From the NCBI RefSeq assembly GCF_001543325.1, contig NZ_CP013355.1, positions 2,200,001 through 2,264,000 of the forward strand: 64,000 nt of DNA. Reading direction: 5' to 3'. A program made the translations under genes and the position numbers. This stretch comes from Lutibacter profundi. Lineage in GTDB: Bacteria; Bacteroidota; Bacteroidia; Flavobacteriales; Flavobacteriaceae. This document shows positions 29,082 to 37,907 of the stretch, one piece after another. Each line of letters starts with the position of its first letter. Position 1 is the first letter of the stretch. The notes beneath the pieces were generated by a model. The model had not been told where the DNA came from, ran no database searches, and was given only the letters and a program-made list of their open reading frames with translations.

Positions 29082-31631
29082 TTAAAATGAAATTCTAAAG
29101 GTGAAATTTGGAGTTAAACCTATTGAGTTATTATTAACAGCACTTATACTGTTTTCAGCATTTATTTTGTAATATCTGTTTAAGATATTTTTATTGTTGA
29201 GTATATTAAGAATTGAAACTCCAGTCATACCATTTATAGTTTTACTCAATTTGAACTTATAGGTAGATGAAAAATCTACTCGAAAATAATTTGGAAGCCG
29301 ATTGCTATTAGGCTTATTATAATTAATATAATTGCTAACTCCATCAAAAGAAATTGAGTTATCACTAAGCGGTGTTGTAAGTGGTTTTCCTGTTCTCCAA
29401 AGTAAGCCAATTGCTATATCTAATTTTTTATAAGTATATGTATTACCCATAGAAATACTGTGTTTTATATCTAAATTATTTGGGAAGTTTGCAGGGGTGA
29501 GTTCGCTAAAATTATAATTATTATTGTTAAAAGTATAGCCTAGCCAAGTGCTAAAGGCCTCTGTTTTTTTATTTATTAAAAACTCTATTCCGTTAACGGT
29601 GTAACTACCCGAAGTTTTGATAAATTGATTTTGATTTTGAAAACCTTGGTTAGCAGTTGTTATACCGTTAACGTATTTGTAAAACCCTTCTATATCAATA
29701 AAAAAACTATTTTTTTTATAATTAATGCCTATAGATGCTTGTTTACTTTTTATAATTGGTATTGATTCATTATCGGCCAATATCCATCTGTTTTTTTCAA
29801 CGCCTAAAAAATCTTCTTGTAAATCAATTACTTGAGTGGCATTTTGACTTTTAAATTCACCCGCAAATTTTAATGATAAATTTGAATTTACTTTGTGTAA
29901 TGCCTGAATTCTTGGTTCAGGAATGAAAACTCCAAATTTTTCAATATAATTAAGTCTAAAACCACTATTAATAAAAGTTTTATTATTGGTTGAAATATAG
30001 TTTAGCTCACTATATAAAGAATGATTTCTAATAACAGATTTTAGGATTCTTATGTATAAGGGAAGGTTTACATCTTCAGCATTTGAAATACCTAATTCAT
30101 AAAAATGATAGCCAGTTAAAATTTTAATATTTTTAGTTGGTTGGTAATAAGTGTTTAATTTAACACCTGTTTCTAATACTTCATTATTTTGTAGTAAACG
30201 TTGTTCAGTTAATAAGGTGTAATTAGATGCTTTTATATTATATTTTGTGTAATATATATTTAGAAGTGTTTTAAACTTTTTGCCCCATTTGCTAGAAAGT
30301 TTAGCACCAAAGGCTAAGTTTTTTTGCTGTAGAGTACTTGTTTTAGATTCATTTAATGTTTCATTTTTTAACGTTTCATTGTAATCTAAATTGTTTTCAA
30401 CCTTTAATAAGTTAAACCTAAATTTGTGTTGTTTGTTAATATTGTACAAGAACTTTAAATTATAATCATAAAAATTAAAATTAGAAGCCGTTTTAACATC
30501 GGTATTATTAATATTAAGTTGGGTAGAAATTTTAGAATCTTGAAATATACGATTAAAGTATTGTTCAAAAGTAGGAGTGCTAAATAAATCGGTTACAGAG
30601 CGTCTTCCTGAGAATTGTATGGCTACTTTTTTTGAAATAGGAACTTGTCCGTAAGCATCAACACTTAAAAGATTAAACCCAGCTCCACCAAACGGTTTTT
30701 CTTTAATATCATTTATAGATTTCATATCTACTGTGCCAGAAACACCATCGTTATATTGTGAGCTAGTACCATTTTTAATAATTGTAACATCCTCTATTAA
30801 ATAGGGGTTGAAAGCTGAAATTAAACCAAAAAAATGACCTGAATGATACATTTTAATACCATCCCAAATAAGTAAATTTTGATCATTTGTACCACCTCTA
30901 ATGTTGATAGTTGAAATAGTTTCATTAACACTGCTAATCCCTGGAATTGATTGAATTTTATGTAGTACATCAGGTTCAATAAGGCCAGGTAAAATACCAA
31001 ATTTTTCAGTATTTAGGTTAATTGTGTTATTTGTTTTTACAGTTATACCAGAGGTTAAATAATTTGTTAAAATTACTTCATTGAGTTGTTCAACCTTTTG
31101 AGTTAAAGGGATAATTAAGCATTTATTTTTTTTAATAAAATCAGTTGAATTTAAATAAACGGTAGCGTATGAAATATGACTTATTTCTACAATGTCGTTT
31201 CCATCAATTTCAGGTAATTCAAAATAACCTTTAGCATTAGAAACGGTACTAACATTTGTGTTTAAAACAGCAACATGTGCATTGTCAATGAAAATTTGAG
31301 AATTAACATCAAATAAGTTTCCACAAATTTTAATTCCTGCAGTTTTGCTATTAATTAAAATATTATTTGAGGTTAAAAAAGTGAAGTTTAATTTTGTAGC
31401 ATTTTTCAAATAAGAAATAGCTTCCTTTAAGTTTAGAGCTGTACTGTACGGGATTATTTCAAAATTTTCAACCGTTTTATCTGCGTAAGTAAAGGTAATG
31501 TTATACTGTTTTTCAGCAACAATTAGAACATCCAAAAGAGGATGAGCTTTTTTATTAGGGGTTTGAGAGTAATTGCAAACGGTATAAAAAAAGCATAAAG
31601 TAATTAAAAAAAATTGTTTTAAAAATTTCAT
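29082..31631 (-). CDS. TonB-dependent receptor with STN-like and carboxypeptidase-like N-terminal domains
   Basis: This 849-residue outer-membrane receptor has a signal peptide, an STN-like secretin/TonB N-terminal domain (about 28-105), a carboxypeptidase-regulatory-like domain (about 110-185), a plug (about 200-310; INIRGGTNDQNLLIWDGIKMYH) and a 22-strand barrel ending FTFRISF. The STN domain and the upstream fecR and sigma genes mean it probably signals ligand binding to the anti-sigma FecR. No SusD partner is adjacent. The ligand is unknown. Confidence 0.9.
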   Translation of the reverse strand: MKFLKQFFLITLCFFYTVCNYSQTPNKKAHPLLDVLIVAEKQYNITFTYADKTVENFEIIPYSTALNLKEAISYLKNATKLNFTFLTSNNILINSKTAGIKICGNLFDVNSQIFIDNAHVAVLNTNVSTVSNAKGYFELPEIDGNDIVEISHISYATVYLNSTDFIKKNKCLIIPLTQKVEQLNEVILTNYLTSGITVKTNNTINLNTEKFGILPGLIEPDVLHKIQSIPGISSVNETISTINIRGGTNDQNLLIWDGIKMYHSGHFFGLISAFNPYLIEDVTIIKNGTSSQYNDGVSGTVDMKSINDIKEKPFGGAGFNLLSVDAYGQVPISKKVAIQFSGRRSVTDLFSTPTFEQYFNRIFQDSKISTQLNINNTDVKTASNFNFYDYNLKFLYNINKQHKFRFNLLKVENNLDYNETLKNETLNESKTSTLQQKNLAFGAKLSSKWGKKFKTLLNIYYTKYNIKASNYTLLTEQRLLQNNEVLETGVKLNTYYQPTKNIKILTGYHFYELGISNAEDVNLPLYIRILKSVIRNHSLYSELNYISTNNKTFINSGFRLNYIEKFGVFIPEPRIQALHKVNSNLSLKFAGEFKSQNATQVIDLQEDFLGVEKNRWILADNESIPIIKSKQASIGINYKKNSFFIDIEGFYKYVNGITTANQGFQNQNQFIKTSGSYTVNGIEFLINKKTEAFSTWLGYTFNNNNYNFSELTPANFPNNLDIKHSISMGNTYTYKKLDIAIGLLWRTGKPLTTPLSDNSISFDGVSNYINYNKPNSNRLPNYFRVDFSSTYKFKLSKTINGMTGVSILNILNNKNILNRYYKINAENSISAVNNNSIGLTPNFTFRISF

Positions 31632-31633
31632 TA

Positions 31634-32527
31634 TTAATTTAAACGAACCTTATTATTTGTTACAAAGGTATAATTTAAATTAAAAGGAATGGTAATAGCT
31701 TTTAAAGCATTTTTTAAATTGTTATGTGTAAAGTTACCTGTAAATAAGTTTTTTGAAAGTGTATTGTCAAACTCAATAGATATATTGTATTGTCTTTCAA
31801 GTTCATTAACTACATACCAGTAAGGCATACTTTTAAATGAGCTATTGTTTTGAATCCACGATGGGCTTAAGTCTGTAATGGTTTTTTCAAACTTAGTTTT
31901 AGAATTTATGACTTTAAAAGAGCTTCCAGCAGGAATCTTAATGGTGTTATTTTTATAAGTAGCACTAACTAAACCTTCATAGCAAATAACTTCGAAATAA
32001 TTATTTCTAGCTACAACATTAAATTGTGTTCCAAGTACGGTTACATTTCCGAGTGCCGTTTTTACAGTAAATTTAGAGCCTTTTGCAACTTTAAAATAAG
32101 CTTCACCTTTTAAAGATAAATTTCTATTATTTTTCCAGTTGCGTATTTTATATTTTATCTCTGAATCGGCATTTAAATTTACAATGGACTTATCTGGTAA
32201 ATTAAAAGTGATTTTCTGAGCAAAAGAGGTTGTATAGTTTTGTGAGCGATTACCAATAAAATAGTAAGAAGAAACAACAACAATAATAATTGCTGCTACT
32301 TTGTATATAAATTTCGGAAAGTTTAATCTTCTTACCTTTGTTTTAGAATTCTTTAAATTTAATTTTTTTAGCGCTTCTTCAGCATTAAAAACAGGTGCTT
32401 CAAGTTTATTTGAATGGGAAACAATTTTTTTGTAGGTACGTACCTCGTCTTCACTTAAATATTTTTTAAGTTCAGTTTCTGAAATTTCGTTTGCAAGCCA
32501 TTTGGCTAAAAAATTATTTTCTTTCAT
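31634..32527 (-). CDS. FecR-family anti-sigma factor
   Basis: The start is placed at ATG 32527 (297 residues); the frame extends to TTG 32554, but the predicted ECF-type promoter covers that part. The N-terminal cytoplasmic segment is followed by a transmembrane helix (YKVAAIIIVVVSSYYFIG), a FecR domain (SIVNLNADSEIKYK, GEAYFKVAKG, TVLGTQFNV) and a C-terminal DUF4974-like domain (VNELERQYNISIEFDN). It would hold the sigma factor at the membrane until the TonB receptor signals. The receptor gene follows after 2 bases. Confidence 0.9.
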   Translation of the reverse strand: MKENNFLAKWLANEISETELKKYLSEDEVRTYKKIVSHSNKLEAPVFNAEEALKKLNLKNSKTKVRRLNFPKFIYKVAAIIIVVVSSYYFIGNRSQNYTTSFAQKITFNLPDKSIVNLNADSEIKYKIRNWKNNRNLSLKGEAYFKVAKGSKFTVKTALGNVTVLGTQFNVVARNNYFEVICYEGLVSATYKNNTIKIPAGSSFKVINSKTKFEKTITDLSPSWIQNNSSFKSMPYWYVVNELERQYNISIEFDNTLSKNLFTGNFTHNNLKNALKAITIPFNLNYTFVTNNKVRLN

Positions 32528-32543
32528 ACCTTTCATTATACGT

Positions 32544-32574
32544 ATAACAGTCAATTTTAAAAATACCCTACCTT
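32544..32574 (-). promoter_or_regulatory. Putative ECF promoter, site 1 (fecR-receptor)
   Basis: On the minus strand AAGGTAGGGTA (32574-32564), a 14-base spacer and TGTTAT (32549-32544) lie between the sigma gene stop and the fecR ATG. The same motif and spacing occur at 33150 and 33783. Confidence 0.75.
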
Positions 32575-32578
32575 AATT

Positions 32579-33094
32579 TTATAAATTTTCTATTTCACTC
32601 CTTAAATTTAACAGTGCATTGTGAATTCTTTTCTCTACTGCTTTTACTGAAATCTCTAAAATTTCAGCAATTTCTTTGTATTTTTTACCGTCAATTCTAT
32701 TCATTAAGAAGGCTATTCGTTGAGCTTCAGATAAATTTGATATTGCACGTTGTAACTTTATGCCAAACTCTTTTTCTTCTAATAAAAACTCAGGAGATTC
32801 ATTGGTGTAATTTTTTGTTTGAGAGTTTTTAAAGGTAAGTACAACGTTGCTTTTAGAATATTCATTTAAAAATAAATTATTGGCAATAGTATATAGAAAA
32901 GATTTGGCTTTTCCCGGAATTACTTTTTTACAATTACTCCAAAACTTAAGAAAAGCATCTTGAACAATGTCACTTGCTAAATTAGAATTACCACATTTAT
33001 AGAATATATAATTGTTTAATAATTTAGAGTGATTTATAAAAAAATCACTAAATATTTTTTCATCACAATAATTATTATTCTTGTTAATATCCAT
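32579..33094 (-). CDS. ECF sigma factor (FecI-like)
   Basis: The start is set at ATG 33094 (171 residues). The frame reaches TTG 33130, but that codon lies inside a TAnnTTTG promoter element. Region 2 appears as SDIVQDAFLKFW with AKSFLYTIANNLFLNEY, and region 4 as LSEAQRIAFLMNRIDGKKYKEIAEILEISVKAVEKRIHNAL. Paired with FecR and the receptor, it should direct RNA polymerase to the bipartite motif found three times locally. No copy of that motif faces the sigma gene itself. Confidence 0.9.
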   Translation of the reverse strand: MDINKNNNYCDEKIFSDFFINHSKLLNNYIFYKCGNSNLASDIVQDAFLKFWSNCKKVIPGKAKSFLYTIANNLFLNEYSKSNVVLTFKNSQTKNYTNESPEFLLEEKEFGIKLQRAISNLSEAQRIAFLMNRIDGKKYKEIAEILEISVKAVEKRIHNALLNLRSEIENL

Positions 33095-33127
33095 TAATAT
33101 TAATTGGAGATTTATTAAAATTAAACG

Positions 33128-33135
33128 CAAAGATA
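33128..33135 (-). promoter_or_regulatory. Probable -7 element TATCTTTG of the sigma gene
   Basis: On the minus strand TATCTTTG (33135-33128) matches TAnnTTTG. A start near 33122 leaves a leader of about 28 bases before ATG 33094. It suggests the sigma gene uses the housekeeping sigma factor. Confidence 0.5.
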
Positions 33136-33149
33136 AAATTTTTAAAAAT

Positions 33150-33180
33150 AAGGTAGGGTATTTTTAAAGTAGATTGTTAC
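33150..33180 (+). promoter_or_regulatory. Putative ECF promoter, site 2 (first lipoprotein)
   Basis: AAGGTAGGGTA 33150-33160, 14 bases, TGTTAC 33175-33180; the ATG follows 33 bases later at 33214. Identical layout to the other two sites. Confidence 0.78.
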
Positions 33181-33213
33181 AAGAGTATTAATAACACACA
33201 AATTATATAAATT

Positions 33214-33726
33214 ATGAAAATTATAAGCAAATTACTTTATCTAAATTTCTTTTTATTACTATTTATTTCTTGTGATAAGAATGATGATTTAAGTTTTAAT
33301 GATGTTGCAGGAATCTACGAAGGAACTCTTTCAACAAACGTAGCAGGAAAATCTAATACCAAATCTGTTACAGAAACAACAAGCCAAGCAACTGTAGAAA
33401 TAACAATGAATGGTAATGAAATTCAAGTGCATTGCTACAATGACAATTTTGACACAACCCAAACGTTAGATTTATTTAGAGATAATGAAGATATTAAGGT
33501 GTGTTTAACAGGAAGCGATTTTGAAGGAATGTACGGACATATGGAAGGGGATAGGGAGATGAATGGAGGAATGATGGGAAGTGAAAATGAATGGATGCAA
33601 CATTTAAACGATGAACACAAACAAGGTGATGAACATTTTGGAGGATTTGATATGAGCCAAAACTCATTTGATTATACCTTTAAAGTAAATGGCATGGATT
33701 ACCATTTTGAGGGGTATAAACAATAA
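33214..33726 (+). CDS. Small lipoprotein rich in Met, His and acidic residues
   Basis: The 170-residue protein has a lipobox FISC with lipid cysteine C20. Residues about 25-95 look like a small beta domain (AGIYEGTLSTN, ATVEITMNGNEIQVHCY). Residues 105-155 are packed with Met, His, Glu and Asp (GMYGHMEGD, MNGGMMGS, HLNDEHKQGDEHFGGFDM), suggestive of metal binding, followed by FTFKVNGMDYHFEGYKQ. It is probably exported under control of the adjacent ECF factor. Its function is unknown. Confidence 0.7.
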   Translation: MKIISKLLYLNFFLLLFISCDKNDDLSFNDVAGIYEGTLSTNVAGKSNTKSVTETTSQATVEITMNGNEIQVHCYNDNFDTTQTLDLFRDNEDIKVCLTGSDFEGMYGHMEGDREMNGGMMGSENEWMQHLNDEHKQGDEHFGGFDMSQNSFDYTFKVNGMDYHFEGYKQ

Positions 33727-33741
33727 TTATTTTGAATTAAT

Positions 33742-33776
33742 AATCTTCCAGTACAAATGTATTGGAAGATTTTTTT
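33742..33776 (+). terminator. Rho-independent terminator
   Basis: A 13- to 14-base stem (33742-33755 with 33758-33771, one G-T pair) is followed by a T-run. It separates the two lipoprotein genes into independent transcripts. Confidence 0.85.
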
Positions 33777-33782
33777 AATTTT

Positions 33783-33813
33783 AAGGTAGGGTAACTTAAG
33801 TTTAAAATGTTAC
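33783..33813 (+). promoter_or_regulatory. Putative ECF promoter, site 3 (second lipoprotein)
   Basis: AAGGTAGGGTA 33783-33793, 14 bases, TGTTAC 33808-33813; the ATG is at 33838. It lies directly after the terminator of the first lipoprotein gene. Confidence 0.78.
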
Positions 33814-33837: not shown

Positions 33838-35289
33838 ATGAAAACAATCAGCAAATTTTTACTATTAAGCTTAAGTATTATTGTTTTTATTTCTTGTCAA
33901 ACCGAAATTAACAGTATAGAACAATCTTCTGAAAGTGAAACCTTAAATGCTGCATCTGAAGTAGCCACTCTAGTACAGCGTACCGTTTCTCAAGATGGTT
34001 CAAAAGATAATATCATTGATAAAGCAAGTTGTATAACCGTAAGTTTACCGGTAACAGTTTTAGCAAATGGCGTAGAAATTGCTATTGAAAATGAATCAGA
34101 TTTTGAACTTATTGAGCAAATTTTTGATGAATTTGAAGATGATGATGATATTTTACAAATAGTATTTCCAATTGTAATTACTTTAAGTGATTATACAGAA
34201 ATTACAGTCAATACTATTGAAGAATTACAAAATTTAGCCAGTGAATGTGGTAATGAAAACGAAATAGATGATGATATTGAATGTTTAGATTTTGTATACC
34301 CCATTACATTATCAAAATATGACGCTAACAGTCAACTAATTGAAACAGTTGTAGTTACTAATGACATGCAGTTTTACGCTCTTGTAAATCATTTAGGTGA
34401 TGGTAACATAATTTCAATCAATTTTCCAATTACAATGAAACTTTATGATGGTACTGAAGAAATAGTCAACAATATGGAAGAAATGGGTAGCTTAATGGAA
34501 GATGCTGAATTTATGTGCGATGAAGATGATGATAATGATTATGATGATGATGATTGTATGCATTGCACAGAAAATCAAATTTCTGAATTATTGCAAACCT
34601 GTAGCTGGAATATTCACAAAATAATTATAGACGATATTGATATAACAGCGCAGTACACAGATTTTATATTTACATTTTTAGAAGATGGAACTGTTGTAAC
34701 TATTATTGCAGGAGATTATATATATGGAACATGGGAACTTATAACATCGCAAGACGGTATGGGTATGGGAAATAATTCTCAAGCAGGGAAATACATCAAT
34801 ATTTATTTTGAAGACTACCCAGATTTTTCATTCAATTGGATGGTTTACGAAATGAATGATGATAATGAAATAGATTTGCGATCAAACCAAAATAGACTAA
34901 CATTGGAGATAGTATGTGATGATAATGATAACGAGGAAAATGATAGTAAAACCGAATTAATAAATATATTAAGTGAAGGAACTTGGTTGGTTGCTAATTT
35001 TAATTATGAAGGACAAAATGAAATCACAAATTATAATGATTTTGTTATAGATTTTAAAAATAATTCTTTAGTAACTGCAACTAAAGGAGATAATACAATA
35101 GAAGGGAGTTGGTCTGTTTTTTATGAAGATGAAAAGCTAAAACTAGAATTAAACTTTGGCGAAAACATGCCCTTTAATAAATTTAATAAAAATTGGTTAG
35201 CGGTTGATATTAAAAATACTAGAGTTGAGGTAAATAATTTAGACGACTCAGGAAATGAAGAGAGTAATTTAGTGTTTGAACGTATTTAG
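33838..35289 (+). CDS. Asp-rich lipoprotein with two duplicated domain pairs
   Basis: The 483-residue protein has lipid cysteine C20 (FISC), the same signal style as its neighbour. Residues about 60-140 and 143-225 are two related repeats, each starting Cys-x-x-V/F-x-x-P and containing FPI-(V/T)-(I/M)-x-L and a closing Cys. After an Asp run near 227-240, two lipocalin-like segments follow (about 250-360 with CSWNIHKIIIDD and GTWEL; about 378-483 with GTWLVANFNYEG and EGSWSVFYE). It is probably surface or periplasmic. Its function is unknown. Confidence 0.7.
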   Translation: MKTISKFLLLSLSIIVFISCQTEINSIEQSSESETLNAASEVATLVQRTVSQDGSKDNIIDKASCITVSLPVTVLANGVEIAIENESDFELIEQIFDEFEDDDDILQIVFPIVITLSDYTEITVNTIEELQNLASECGNENEIDDDIECLDFVYPITLSKYDANSQLIETVVVTNDMQFYALVNHLGDGNIISINFPITMKLYDGTEEIVNNMEEMGSLMEDAEFMCDEDDDNDYDDDDCMHCTENQISELLQTCSWNIHKIIIDDIDITAQYTDFIFTFLEDGTVVTIIAGDYIYGTWELITSQDGMGMGNNSQAGKYINIYFEDYPDFSFNWMVYEMNDDNEIDLRSNQNRLTLEIVCDDNDNEENDSKTELINILSEGTWLVANFNYEGQNEITNYNDFVIDFKNNSLVTATKGDNTIEGSWSVFYEDEKLKLELNFGENMPFNKFNKNWLAVDIKNTRVEVNNLDDSGNEESNLVFERI

Positions 35290-35576: not shown

Positions 35577-37907
35577 GTGAAAATAAAAAACAAAGAAATA
35601 GAAAATTCAACAATTTCTAATTTGCTATTAAATGAAGCTGATATATTAGTGATTTCATATAATAGAAAAGGTGAAGTAACCTATATTTCCCCAACAACAG
35701 AAAAACTTATTGGTTATAAATCTAAGAAACTATTAGGTAAACAGTGGTGGAGTTTAACTTTTTTTTCAAAAGAAAAAAGCAAATTATTTAGAGATAAAAT
35801 AAAAGAAACTATATCTGGAAAAAGAGAATTTAATCCAACGCCATATCGAAGAAAATTAAAATGTGAAAACGGGAATGTAAAATGGATTGAGTGGAGAGAC
35901 TCTTTAAGTGATAATGAAATAGTTTCTGTAGGAACAGATATTACTTATTGGAAAAAGAAAGAAGCATCAAAAATACAATCAGATAAAATTTTAGAGAATA
36001 TTAATTCTCTTGTTATGGTTAGTAATAATAAAGATGAAATTATTTACTCATCACCCTCAGTAAAAAAAATGTTAGGATATGAAGTTGAAGAAATTATGGG
36101 AGATAAATGGTGGGATGTTACTTACGATAATAAACAAGAAGCAATCAAAACTAAAGAAGCAATTAATAATTATGTCAATTTCAGTATAAAAAATTTTGTT
36201 GATATATCTAAACGAAAAATTAAAGCACGTAACGGAGAATATAAATGGATAGAATGGCACATATCAAAAGGCGTAAACGATACTTATATTTCTGTTGGAA
36301 CGGATATTACAGATAGGATATTAACAGATATTGAATTAAAAAAAGCTAAAGAATCTGCTGAAGAGTCATTAAAAGTTAAAAATGAATTTTTAGCAAATAT
36401 GAGTCATGAAATTAGAACCCCACTTAATGCAATTATTGGATTCACAGATTTATTACTTGAAACAAAACTAACCACAGAACAAAAGTTACATTTAGAAACA
36501 ATGCAAAACTCAGGAGAAATTTTACTTTCTCTAATTAATGATGTTTTAGACCTTTCAAAATTAGAATCAGGAAAATTAGAAATTGAAGTAATTCCATTTA
36601 ATTTACATAAACAATTAAATGAAGTTGTTAGACTTATGAAAATAAAAGCTCGTGAGAAAAATATTTCTTTAAACTTGGAGATTGATTCAAACACACCAAA
36701 AGAAGTTGTTGGAGACCCTACCAGATTAGGGCAAATACTTCTAAACTTAATTGGAAATGCTATTAAATTCACAAATAAAGGATCAGTAACTGTTTCGGTT
36801 AAACAACTAAAAGAGTCAACAAAGAGTACAACAGTTTTTTTTGAAATTCAAGATACAGGTATTGGCATAGTTTCGAATAAAATAAATACGGTATTTGGAG
36901 CATTCACACAGGCAAAAAGTGATACTTCTAGAATTTATGGAGGTACAGGTTTGGGACTTACAATTGTAAAAAAATTAGTTAGCTTATTAAGTGGGCAAAT
37001 TACAGTTGAAAGTAAATTTGGAAAAGGAAGTGTTTTTAAATTTACATTACCACTGCAAAAAAGCTCTAGTAAAACAAAAGTTGAAGAGCATGAAGAAGAT
37101 TTAGCTATGGATAAACCATTGAACTTAAATATTTTATTGGTAGATGATAATAAAACAAATCAACTGCTTGGTAAAACTAGGCTAAAAAGATGGGGATGCA
37201 ATGTTGATCTTGCAAATAACGGGATAGAAGGTGTGAAAAAAACCCAACAAAAATTATACGATGTTATTTTAATGGATATTCAAATGCCTATTATGGATGG
37301 TTATGAAGCAACAAAAATTATTAAAAATGATATTTCTGAACAAGTATCTAAAATACCAGTAATTGCCATGACTGCTTATACCTCTAAAAATGACATTAAA
37401 AGAGCCATAAATGCGGGTATGGATGATTATATTTTTAAACCTTTTAAACCTGCTGAAGTTTACAAGTTGTTAAAAAAATATGGGAAAATTACTGAAGAAA
37501 ATAATGATAAAAATCCTGAAAACATTGAAAAACAAATTAAACCTAAATCTAAAAAGTATATAGACTTAAAATTTATTAGAGAAGAAACAATGAACGAAAG
37601 CTCTATTTTAGCATTATTAATAGAGTCTTTTATAAATGATATTGATGAGTTTTTAGAAATATTAGATAAAGGATTTAGAAGTAAAAACTGGAAACTTTTG
37701 CATGAAGCTACACATAAAATTAAACCAAGCATAAGGATGTTTGGAATTTCAAAGTTAGATCAAGTAATTCATGACCTTGTAAATAGATTTAGAGAAAAAC
37801 AACAATTGAATAATGTTGATGAGCGTATTAACTTATGTAATGAAATACTTAAAGATGTTAAAACTGAATTATTAACAGAACTAAAATTATTAAAAGATGA
37901 ACAATAA
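35577..37907 (+). CDS. Hybrid histidine kinase (PAS-PAS-HisKA-HATPase-REC-HPt)
   Basis: A GTG start gives 776 residues without a transmembrane helix, so it is a cytoplasmic sensor. Two PAS domains (about 15-125 and 135-245) precede HisKA with H277 in NMSHEIRTPLNAIIGF, an HATPase with NLIGNAIKF, DTGIGI and GGTGLGL, a receiver with D567 in ILMDIQMPIMDGYEA, and an HPt with H713 in THKIKPSIRMFG. This is a complete intramolecular phosphorelay. It overlaps the next response regulator gene by 11 bases, which is its likely output. Confidence 0.93.
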   Translation: MKIKNKEIENSTISNLLLNEADILVISYNRKGEVTYISPTTEKLIGYKSKKLLGKQWWSLTFFSKEKSKLFRDKIKETISGKREFNPTPYRRKLKCENGNVKWIEWRDSLSDNEIVSVGTDITYWKKKEASKIQSDKILENINSLVMVSNNKDEIIYSSPSVKKMLGYEVEEIMGDKWWDVTYDNKQEAIKTKEAINNYVNFSIKNFVDISKRKIKARNGEYKWIEWHISKGVNDTYISVGTDITDRILTDIELKKAKESAEESLKVKNEFLANMSHEIRTPLNAIIGFTDLLLETKLTTEQKLHLETMQNSGEILLSLINDVLDLSKLESGKLEIEVIPFNLHKQLNEVVRLMKIKAREKNISLNLEIDSNTPKEVVGDPTRLGQILLNLIGNAIKFTNKGSVTVSVKQLKESTKSTTVFFEIQDTGIGIVSNKINTVFGAFTQAKSDTSRIYGGTGLGLTIVKKLVSLLSGQITVESKFGKGSVFKFTLPLQKSSSKTKVEEHEEDLAMDKPLNLNILLVDDNKTNQLLGKTRLKRWGCNVDLANNGIEGVKKTQQKLYDVILMDIQMPIMDGYEATKIIKNDISEQVSKIPVIAMTAYTSKNDIKRAINAGMDDYIFKPFKPAEVYKLLKKYGKITEENNDKNPENIEKQIKPKSKKYIDLKFIREETMNESSILALLIESFINDIDEFLEILDKGFRSKNWKLLHEATHKIKPSIRMFGISKLDQVIHDLVNRFREKQQLNNVDERINLCNEILKDVKTELLTELKLLKDEQ

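Follow-up and report, generated by a model that had tools for sequence, protein, structure and literature searches.

Putative ECF sigma factor promoters at a FecR/TonB locus of Lutibacter profundi and their co-variation with the adjacent sigma factor in Flavobacteriaceae

The window analyzed here (the whole stretch of 64,000 nucleotides from Lutibacter profundi, contig NZ_CP013355.1) contains a sigma/FecR/TonB locus with three copies of the motif AAGGTAGGGTA-N14-TGTTAY. These copies are very probably promoters, each with a -35 and a -10 box, that the adjacent FecI-like ECF sigma factor recognizes, and together they would form a FecR/TonB-controlled regulon that includes two lipoproteins, named A and B in this study. 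When related loci were compared, the two boxes were conserved at a fixed spacing, were paired before both the lipoprotein B gene (lipoB) and fecR, and co-varied with the sigma factor.

Candidate promoters and genes of the locus

The features of the locus are as follows (window coordinates):
29082..31631, minus strand: TonB-dependent receptor with an N-terminal extension (CarboxypepD_reg-like and Plug domains, Pfam)
31634..32536 (homologous start 32527), minus strand: FecR-type sigma regulator (FecR PF04773 and FecR_C PF16344 above the Pfam cut-off)
32544..32574, minus strand: candidate ECF promoter of fecR-tonB (exact AAGGTAGGGTA-N14-TGTTAT; equivalent site in 100/104 family loci)
32579..33094, minus strand: FecI-like ECF sigma factor, 171 aa (Sigma70_r2 and r4_2 above the Pfam cut-off)
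32630..32632, minus strand: codon of sigma residue K155 in the predicted -35 recognition helix (K/Y/H sorts 104 sigmas; aligned with SigW T171)
33128..33135, minus strand: TATCTTTG, putative housekeeping-type -7 element of the sigma gene (by sequence)
33150..33180, plus strand: candidate ECF promoter of the lipoprotein A gene, lipoA (exact match; GTAGGGTA...TGTTTA before the lipoA homologue in L084)
33214..33726, plus strand: lipoprotein A, 170 aa, with a Met/His-rich loop (signal peptide with Cys; Calycin_like below cut-off)
33783..33813, plus strand: candidate ECF promoter of lipoB (exact match; equivalent site in 99/104 family loci)
33838..35289, plus strand: lipoprotein B, 483 aa (two alpha/beta units, acidic linker and two lipocalin-like domains, all predicted)

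All three copies of the motif lie exactly where the initial annotation had placed them, and no further site was found in the window when up to 3 mismatches were allowed. Shuffled windows contained a mean of 0.43 matches and none of 100 shuffles reached three. The distance to the start codon had been given as 17-33 bases, which holds for lipoA (33 nt) and lipoB (24 nt); for fecR it is instead 7 or 16 nt. The second ATG of fecR, at 32527, corresponds to the start found in relatives (MKENNFLAKWL) by homology, and its 16 nt come near the 17 originally claimed. The short distance from the -10 box to fecR (7-16 nt; window 32525-32544, minus strand) was also seen in relatives, and the fecR transcript would be almost leaderless if transcription begins 5-9 nt after TGTT. 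A housekeeping-like element had been described before the sigma gene and was found again at 33128-33135; the related pattern TAnnTTTG precedes the sigma gene in 47 of 104 family loci, when 12 were expected from shuffling.

The sigma factor is a short protein that contains regions 2 and 4 only, as in the ECF (group IV) type, and it scored 112.5 against the Bacteroidetes subfamily TIGR02985 (cut-off 126.4). The fecR gene follows the sigma gene in 97/104 family loci. The N-terminal extension of the receptor is conserved and has a weak FecR_C match below the cut-off (E-value 0.0022), the corresponding match in a paralogous receptor (see below) having an E-value of 9.6e-12. No STN domain was matched in the receptor extensions by profile search.

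Motif search in the complete genome

Instead of the many unlinked matches that the initial annotation had named as evidence against its reading, a scan of the complete genome (2,966,978 bases) found only three exact copies, all before genes of the sigma locus. When up to 2 mismatches were allowed, four more sites were added, one with a single mismatch (603597-603627, minus strand) and three with two mismatches. The latter three were rejected as targets and considered background, because the reversed-pattern control was equally rich (5 matches at up to 2 mismatches in the same genome). The core pattern GTAGG-N17-TGTTAY matched four times in the genome, at the three locus sites and at the 603.6-kb site.

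The 603.6-kb copy (L099:3594-3625; genome minus strand) lies upstream of a PqqD-like/ATP-grasp operon. It was rejected as a fourth target since it is missing before the orthologue in the 8 congeners whose sequence could be read there, and by this comparison it is probably a chance or strain-specific match.

Conservation of the candidate promoters in the genus and the family

Of 36 congeners, 9 carry the exact motif GGTAGGGTA-N14-TGTTAY, whereas the 23 genomes that represented other families of the order had no match (reversed control, 0). The congener sites lie in the sigma-fecR gap or upstream of one of the lipoprotein genes (lipoA or lipoB); two genomes also have a site before a gene beyond tonB. 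The local regulon is thus refined by sequence, in that some relatives have a further predicted target beyond tonB. An unchanged motif was sought across the order and not found, as the -35 box differs by clade, and conservation emerged only through locus-by-locus comparison of promoters.

The best matches to lipoB in the family mostly face a sigma-fecR-tonB operon. The set used below consists of 104 Flavobacteriaceae loci with a lipoB homologue facing the sigma gene (91 distinct sigma proteins), which were selected as best lipoB matches and in which some genomes are represented twice, having been drawn from two collections. In 95/104 loci the box pair was present before both lipoB and fecR, so that the proposed conservation at orthologous loci was borne out and the suggested link between the lipoproteins and TonB receptor signalling gained support from sequence comparison. 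The controls for lipoB and fecR gave 0 and 0 on the opposite strand and 1 and 0 with the reversed pattern. The -35 6-mer was identical at both promoters in 91 of these 95 loci (permuted mean 28.5, maximum 45). In the pattern GG-N17-TGTT, the spacing was exactly 17 in 93 (lipoB) and 100 (fecR) of the 104 loci and every other spacer length occurred at most 6 times. No earlier report of GTAGG-N17-TGTT was found in the literature; a comparable predicted motif could already be on record in the ECF Hub.

Co-variation of the -35 box with the adjacent sigma factor

The -35 boxes fall into three classes that follow the clade of the sigma factor (GTAGG, TCAGG and TTGGG), and both promoters shift together. 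On a quick sigma tree of related and hence non-independent sequences, the lipoB-side class needs 6 changes, compared with 48 when shuffled, and the fecR-side class needs 7. These values suggest that both promoters switched together a handful of times, with about five concerted switches and about two for residue 155.

Residue 155 of the sigma factor is K in 62/62 GTAGG, Y in 31/31 TCAGG and H in 11/11 TTGGG loci, when TCGGG is counted as TCAGG and L142, in which the two promoters differ, is classed by its fecR promoter. No other column separates all 104 sigmas without exception; columns 114, 152 and 161 agree partially with the classes. The neighboring residues E154 and R156 are nearly invariant, and likewise the GG in the DNA. 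Alignment with SigW places residues 152, 155 and 159 at T168, T171 and R175, and residue 155 also corresponds to S172 of sigma-E. In the crystal structures of SigW and sigma-E, the residues aligned with 152, 155 and 159 contact positions -34 and -35 (PMC6713349), with T171 and S172 at -34, and by this alignment we infer that residue 155 contacts position -34.

Thirty sigmas were found using the paralogous sigma of L. profundi as the query, and all of them have K at position 155. The motif is present in the sigma-fecR gap of 24 of these (23 GTAGG and one TTAGG). Sixteen of the 30, additional to the set above, have no lipoB nearby; all have K, and the 12 with a motif comprise 11 GTAGG and one TTAGG. 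In two related congener systems that face a DUF4382 lipoprotein, K155 is paired with GTAGGGTA.

Recognition of the motif by the ECF factor at 32579-33094, which had been offered as inference, is supported by these comparisons. The co-variation is strong evidence that the adjacent sigma, and not another factor, reads the sites. It is plausible, although we would not yet count on it, that residue 155 acts as a specificity switch (K for GTAGG, Y for TCAGG and H for TTGGG) in a large Flavobacteriaceae sigma group, by which both promoters have been recoded in concert and the modules within one cell are kept apart.

The paralogous module and alternative readings of the motif

A second sigma/FecR/TonB operon is present in the same genome (L223:1408-9853; about 2.4884-2.4969 Mb) and also faces a lipoprotein, which has a similar YPITL segment and Asp-rich repeats. 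Genes for thioredoxin-like, ApbE, DUF4266 and DUF3570 proteins lie downstream of this lipoprotein, a gene set known as a flavinylation cluster (PMC8238504). The promoter pair of the module, GTAGGGTTT...TGTYTT, gave the sole two genome matches of the pattern GTAGGG-N16-TGTNTT. The original statement that no fourth copy exists thus holds for the strict motif, but not for this related pair at about 2.493 Mb.

Recognition of the sites might be due in whole or in part to another sigma such as this paralogue, and the regulon would then be shared and not local. The -35 boxes of the two modules are near-identical (GTAGGGT in common) and the paralogous sigma also has K155, so cross-recognition would be possible. 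However, the -10 boxes differ (TGTTAY and TGTYTT) and each promoter set is restricted to its own locus. Moreover, in genomes that carry two modules of different classes, as in Muriicola Z0-33 (L172 with GTAGGG, L199 with TCAGGA) and isolate D16 (L200 and L139), the -35 box tracks the adjacent sigma. We therefore regard reading by another sigma as improbable. The presence of two classes inside one genome also indicates that the -35 class is not a product of genome-wide base composition.

It is far less probable still that the boxes are the binding site of a repressor or activator. Two conserved half-sites at a fixed distance would also suit a dimeric regulator, but neither box repeats the other, and the pair is always oriented toward the downstream gene with promoter-like spacing. 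In addition, changes in the upstream box go along with changes in the recognition helix of sigma, and besides sigma and FecR no regulator gene recurs at the loci. Finally, functionless copies that arose by chance or by recent duplication of one DNA segment, as might be suggested by the spacer part common to the fecR and lipoA sites (TATTTTTAAA), are already strongly contradicted, because relatives preserve the boxes and their spacing but vary freely in spacer sequence, and differing clades have matching differences in -35 class at both sites.

The two lipoproteins

By sequence, lipoproteins A and B both have lipoprotein-type signal peptides with a terminal cysteine, and neither matched a Pfam or NCBIfam family above the cut-off. 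The Met/His-rich loop of lipoprotein A is kept in the 3 distinct homologues found. An AlphaFold2 model of lipoprotein B (built from 36 sequences; mean pLDDT 80, pTM 0.46) begins with two alpha/beta units, which are followed in the C-terminal part by two domains rich in beta structure. Its best fold matches in the PDB were DUF4822 (6e-8), lipocalin-like (6.5e-6) and DUF4847 (6.8e-4) proteins. The C-terminal half also has a weak profile match to the DUF4847 protein 4zgf (E-value 0.0034), and the Pfam lipocalin matches in relatives of lipoprotein B were all below the cut-off. The predicted structure points to no particular ligand.

Homologues of lipoprotein B are present in 178/249 Flavobacteriaceae genomes and rare in other families of the order; plasmid homologues were sought and none was found. 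As the most likely role, we tentatively suggest that the lipoproteins are outer-membrane accessory partners of the receptor that bind a ligand or metal.

Proposed mechanism and comparison with known systems

TonB-dependent cell-surface signalling of the FecI/FecR/FecA type is known from E. coli Fec and from Pseudomonas Fpv, Fox and Pup (PMC9249621), and by analogy the Lutibacter locus may work in the same manner. As in those systems, the genes for an ECF sigma, FecR and a receptor with an N-terminal extension lie together, and the sigma gene has a separate putative promoter. This housekeeping-type promoter would drive expression of the sigma gene, and at the inner membrane FecR would hold back or license the sigma factor. 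Upon ligand binding, the N-terminal extension of the TonB-dependent receptor would be expected to act on FecR, after which sigma would direct RNA polymerase to the fecR-tonB, lipoA and lipoB promoters. Recognition of the -35 box by the region 4.2 helix around K155 would confer specificity, together with TGTT at -10. FecR and the receptor would thus be autoregulated and the lipoproteins induced, while the sigma itself would not be. Both sequence and co-variation place a predicted sigma-dependent promoter before the target operon.

In E. coli Fec the sigma factor acts on the fecA transport operon, of which fecIR is not a part; the Lutibacter locus differs in that fecR-tonB itself is a predicted target. 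The other conserved targets are lipoproteins (acidic, with predicted lipocalin-like domains), and no iron-transport genes were recognized adjoining the Lutibacter locus. Compared with SigW and sigma-E region 4 on the -35 element (PMC6713349), the contact positions are alike by alignment and the -35 sequence is different. In B. thetaiotaomicron, TGTT was found near -10 in promoters linked to the ECF factors SigW-1 and SigH-1 (PMC12596196), and the Lutibacter sites resemble these non-canonical promoters in having TGTT at about -10 tied to an ECF factor. The SigW-1 motif was non-significant in that study (PMC12596196), whereas the -35 box described here is defined, varies by clade and tracks sigma residues.

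The promoter class can be read from sequence alone across Flavobacteriaceae and comes with a candidate residue-to-base rule. Many ECF sigma factors are encoded in Bacteroidota genomes. Unless start sites have been mapped, it is difficult to predict their promoters (PMC3878776). The motif would also link a lipoprotein family that is present in most genomes of the family, and has no Pfam or NCBIfam model, to TonB-dependent signalling. It offers a way to list the targets of paralogous systems, including the one that faces a flavinylation cluster.

Other observations at related loci

A gene for a PAS/histidine kinase/receiver/Hpt hybrid lies 3' of lipoB (35577-37907, plus strand), as it does in several congeners, and is not preceded by the motif. 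Beyond tonB, two congeners have a further exact motif before genes for a DUF2490 protein and a P-loop protein (L095:4792-5574 and L092:7459-8241). A GTAGGG motif is found beyond tonB in two other congeners (L090:11860-13198 and L093:1-1439), and the gene that follows it in L090 encodes a large lipoprotein with long Asp/His-rich runs. In two genomes of the TCAGG class (L103:8526-9327 and L107:11748-12575), TCAGGA precedes a gene for a DUF4382 lipoprotein (match tested in L103), which may be an added target.
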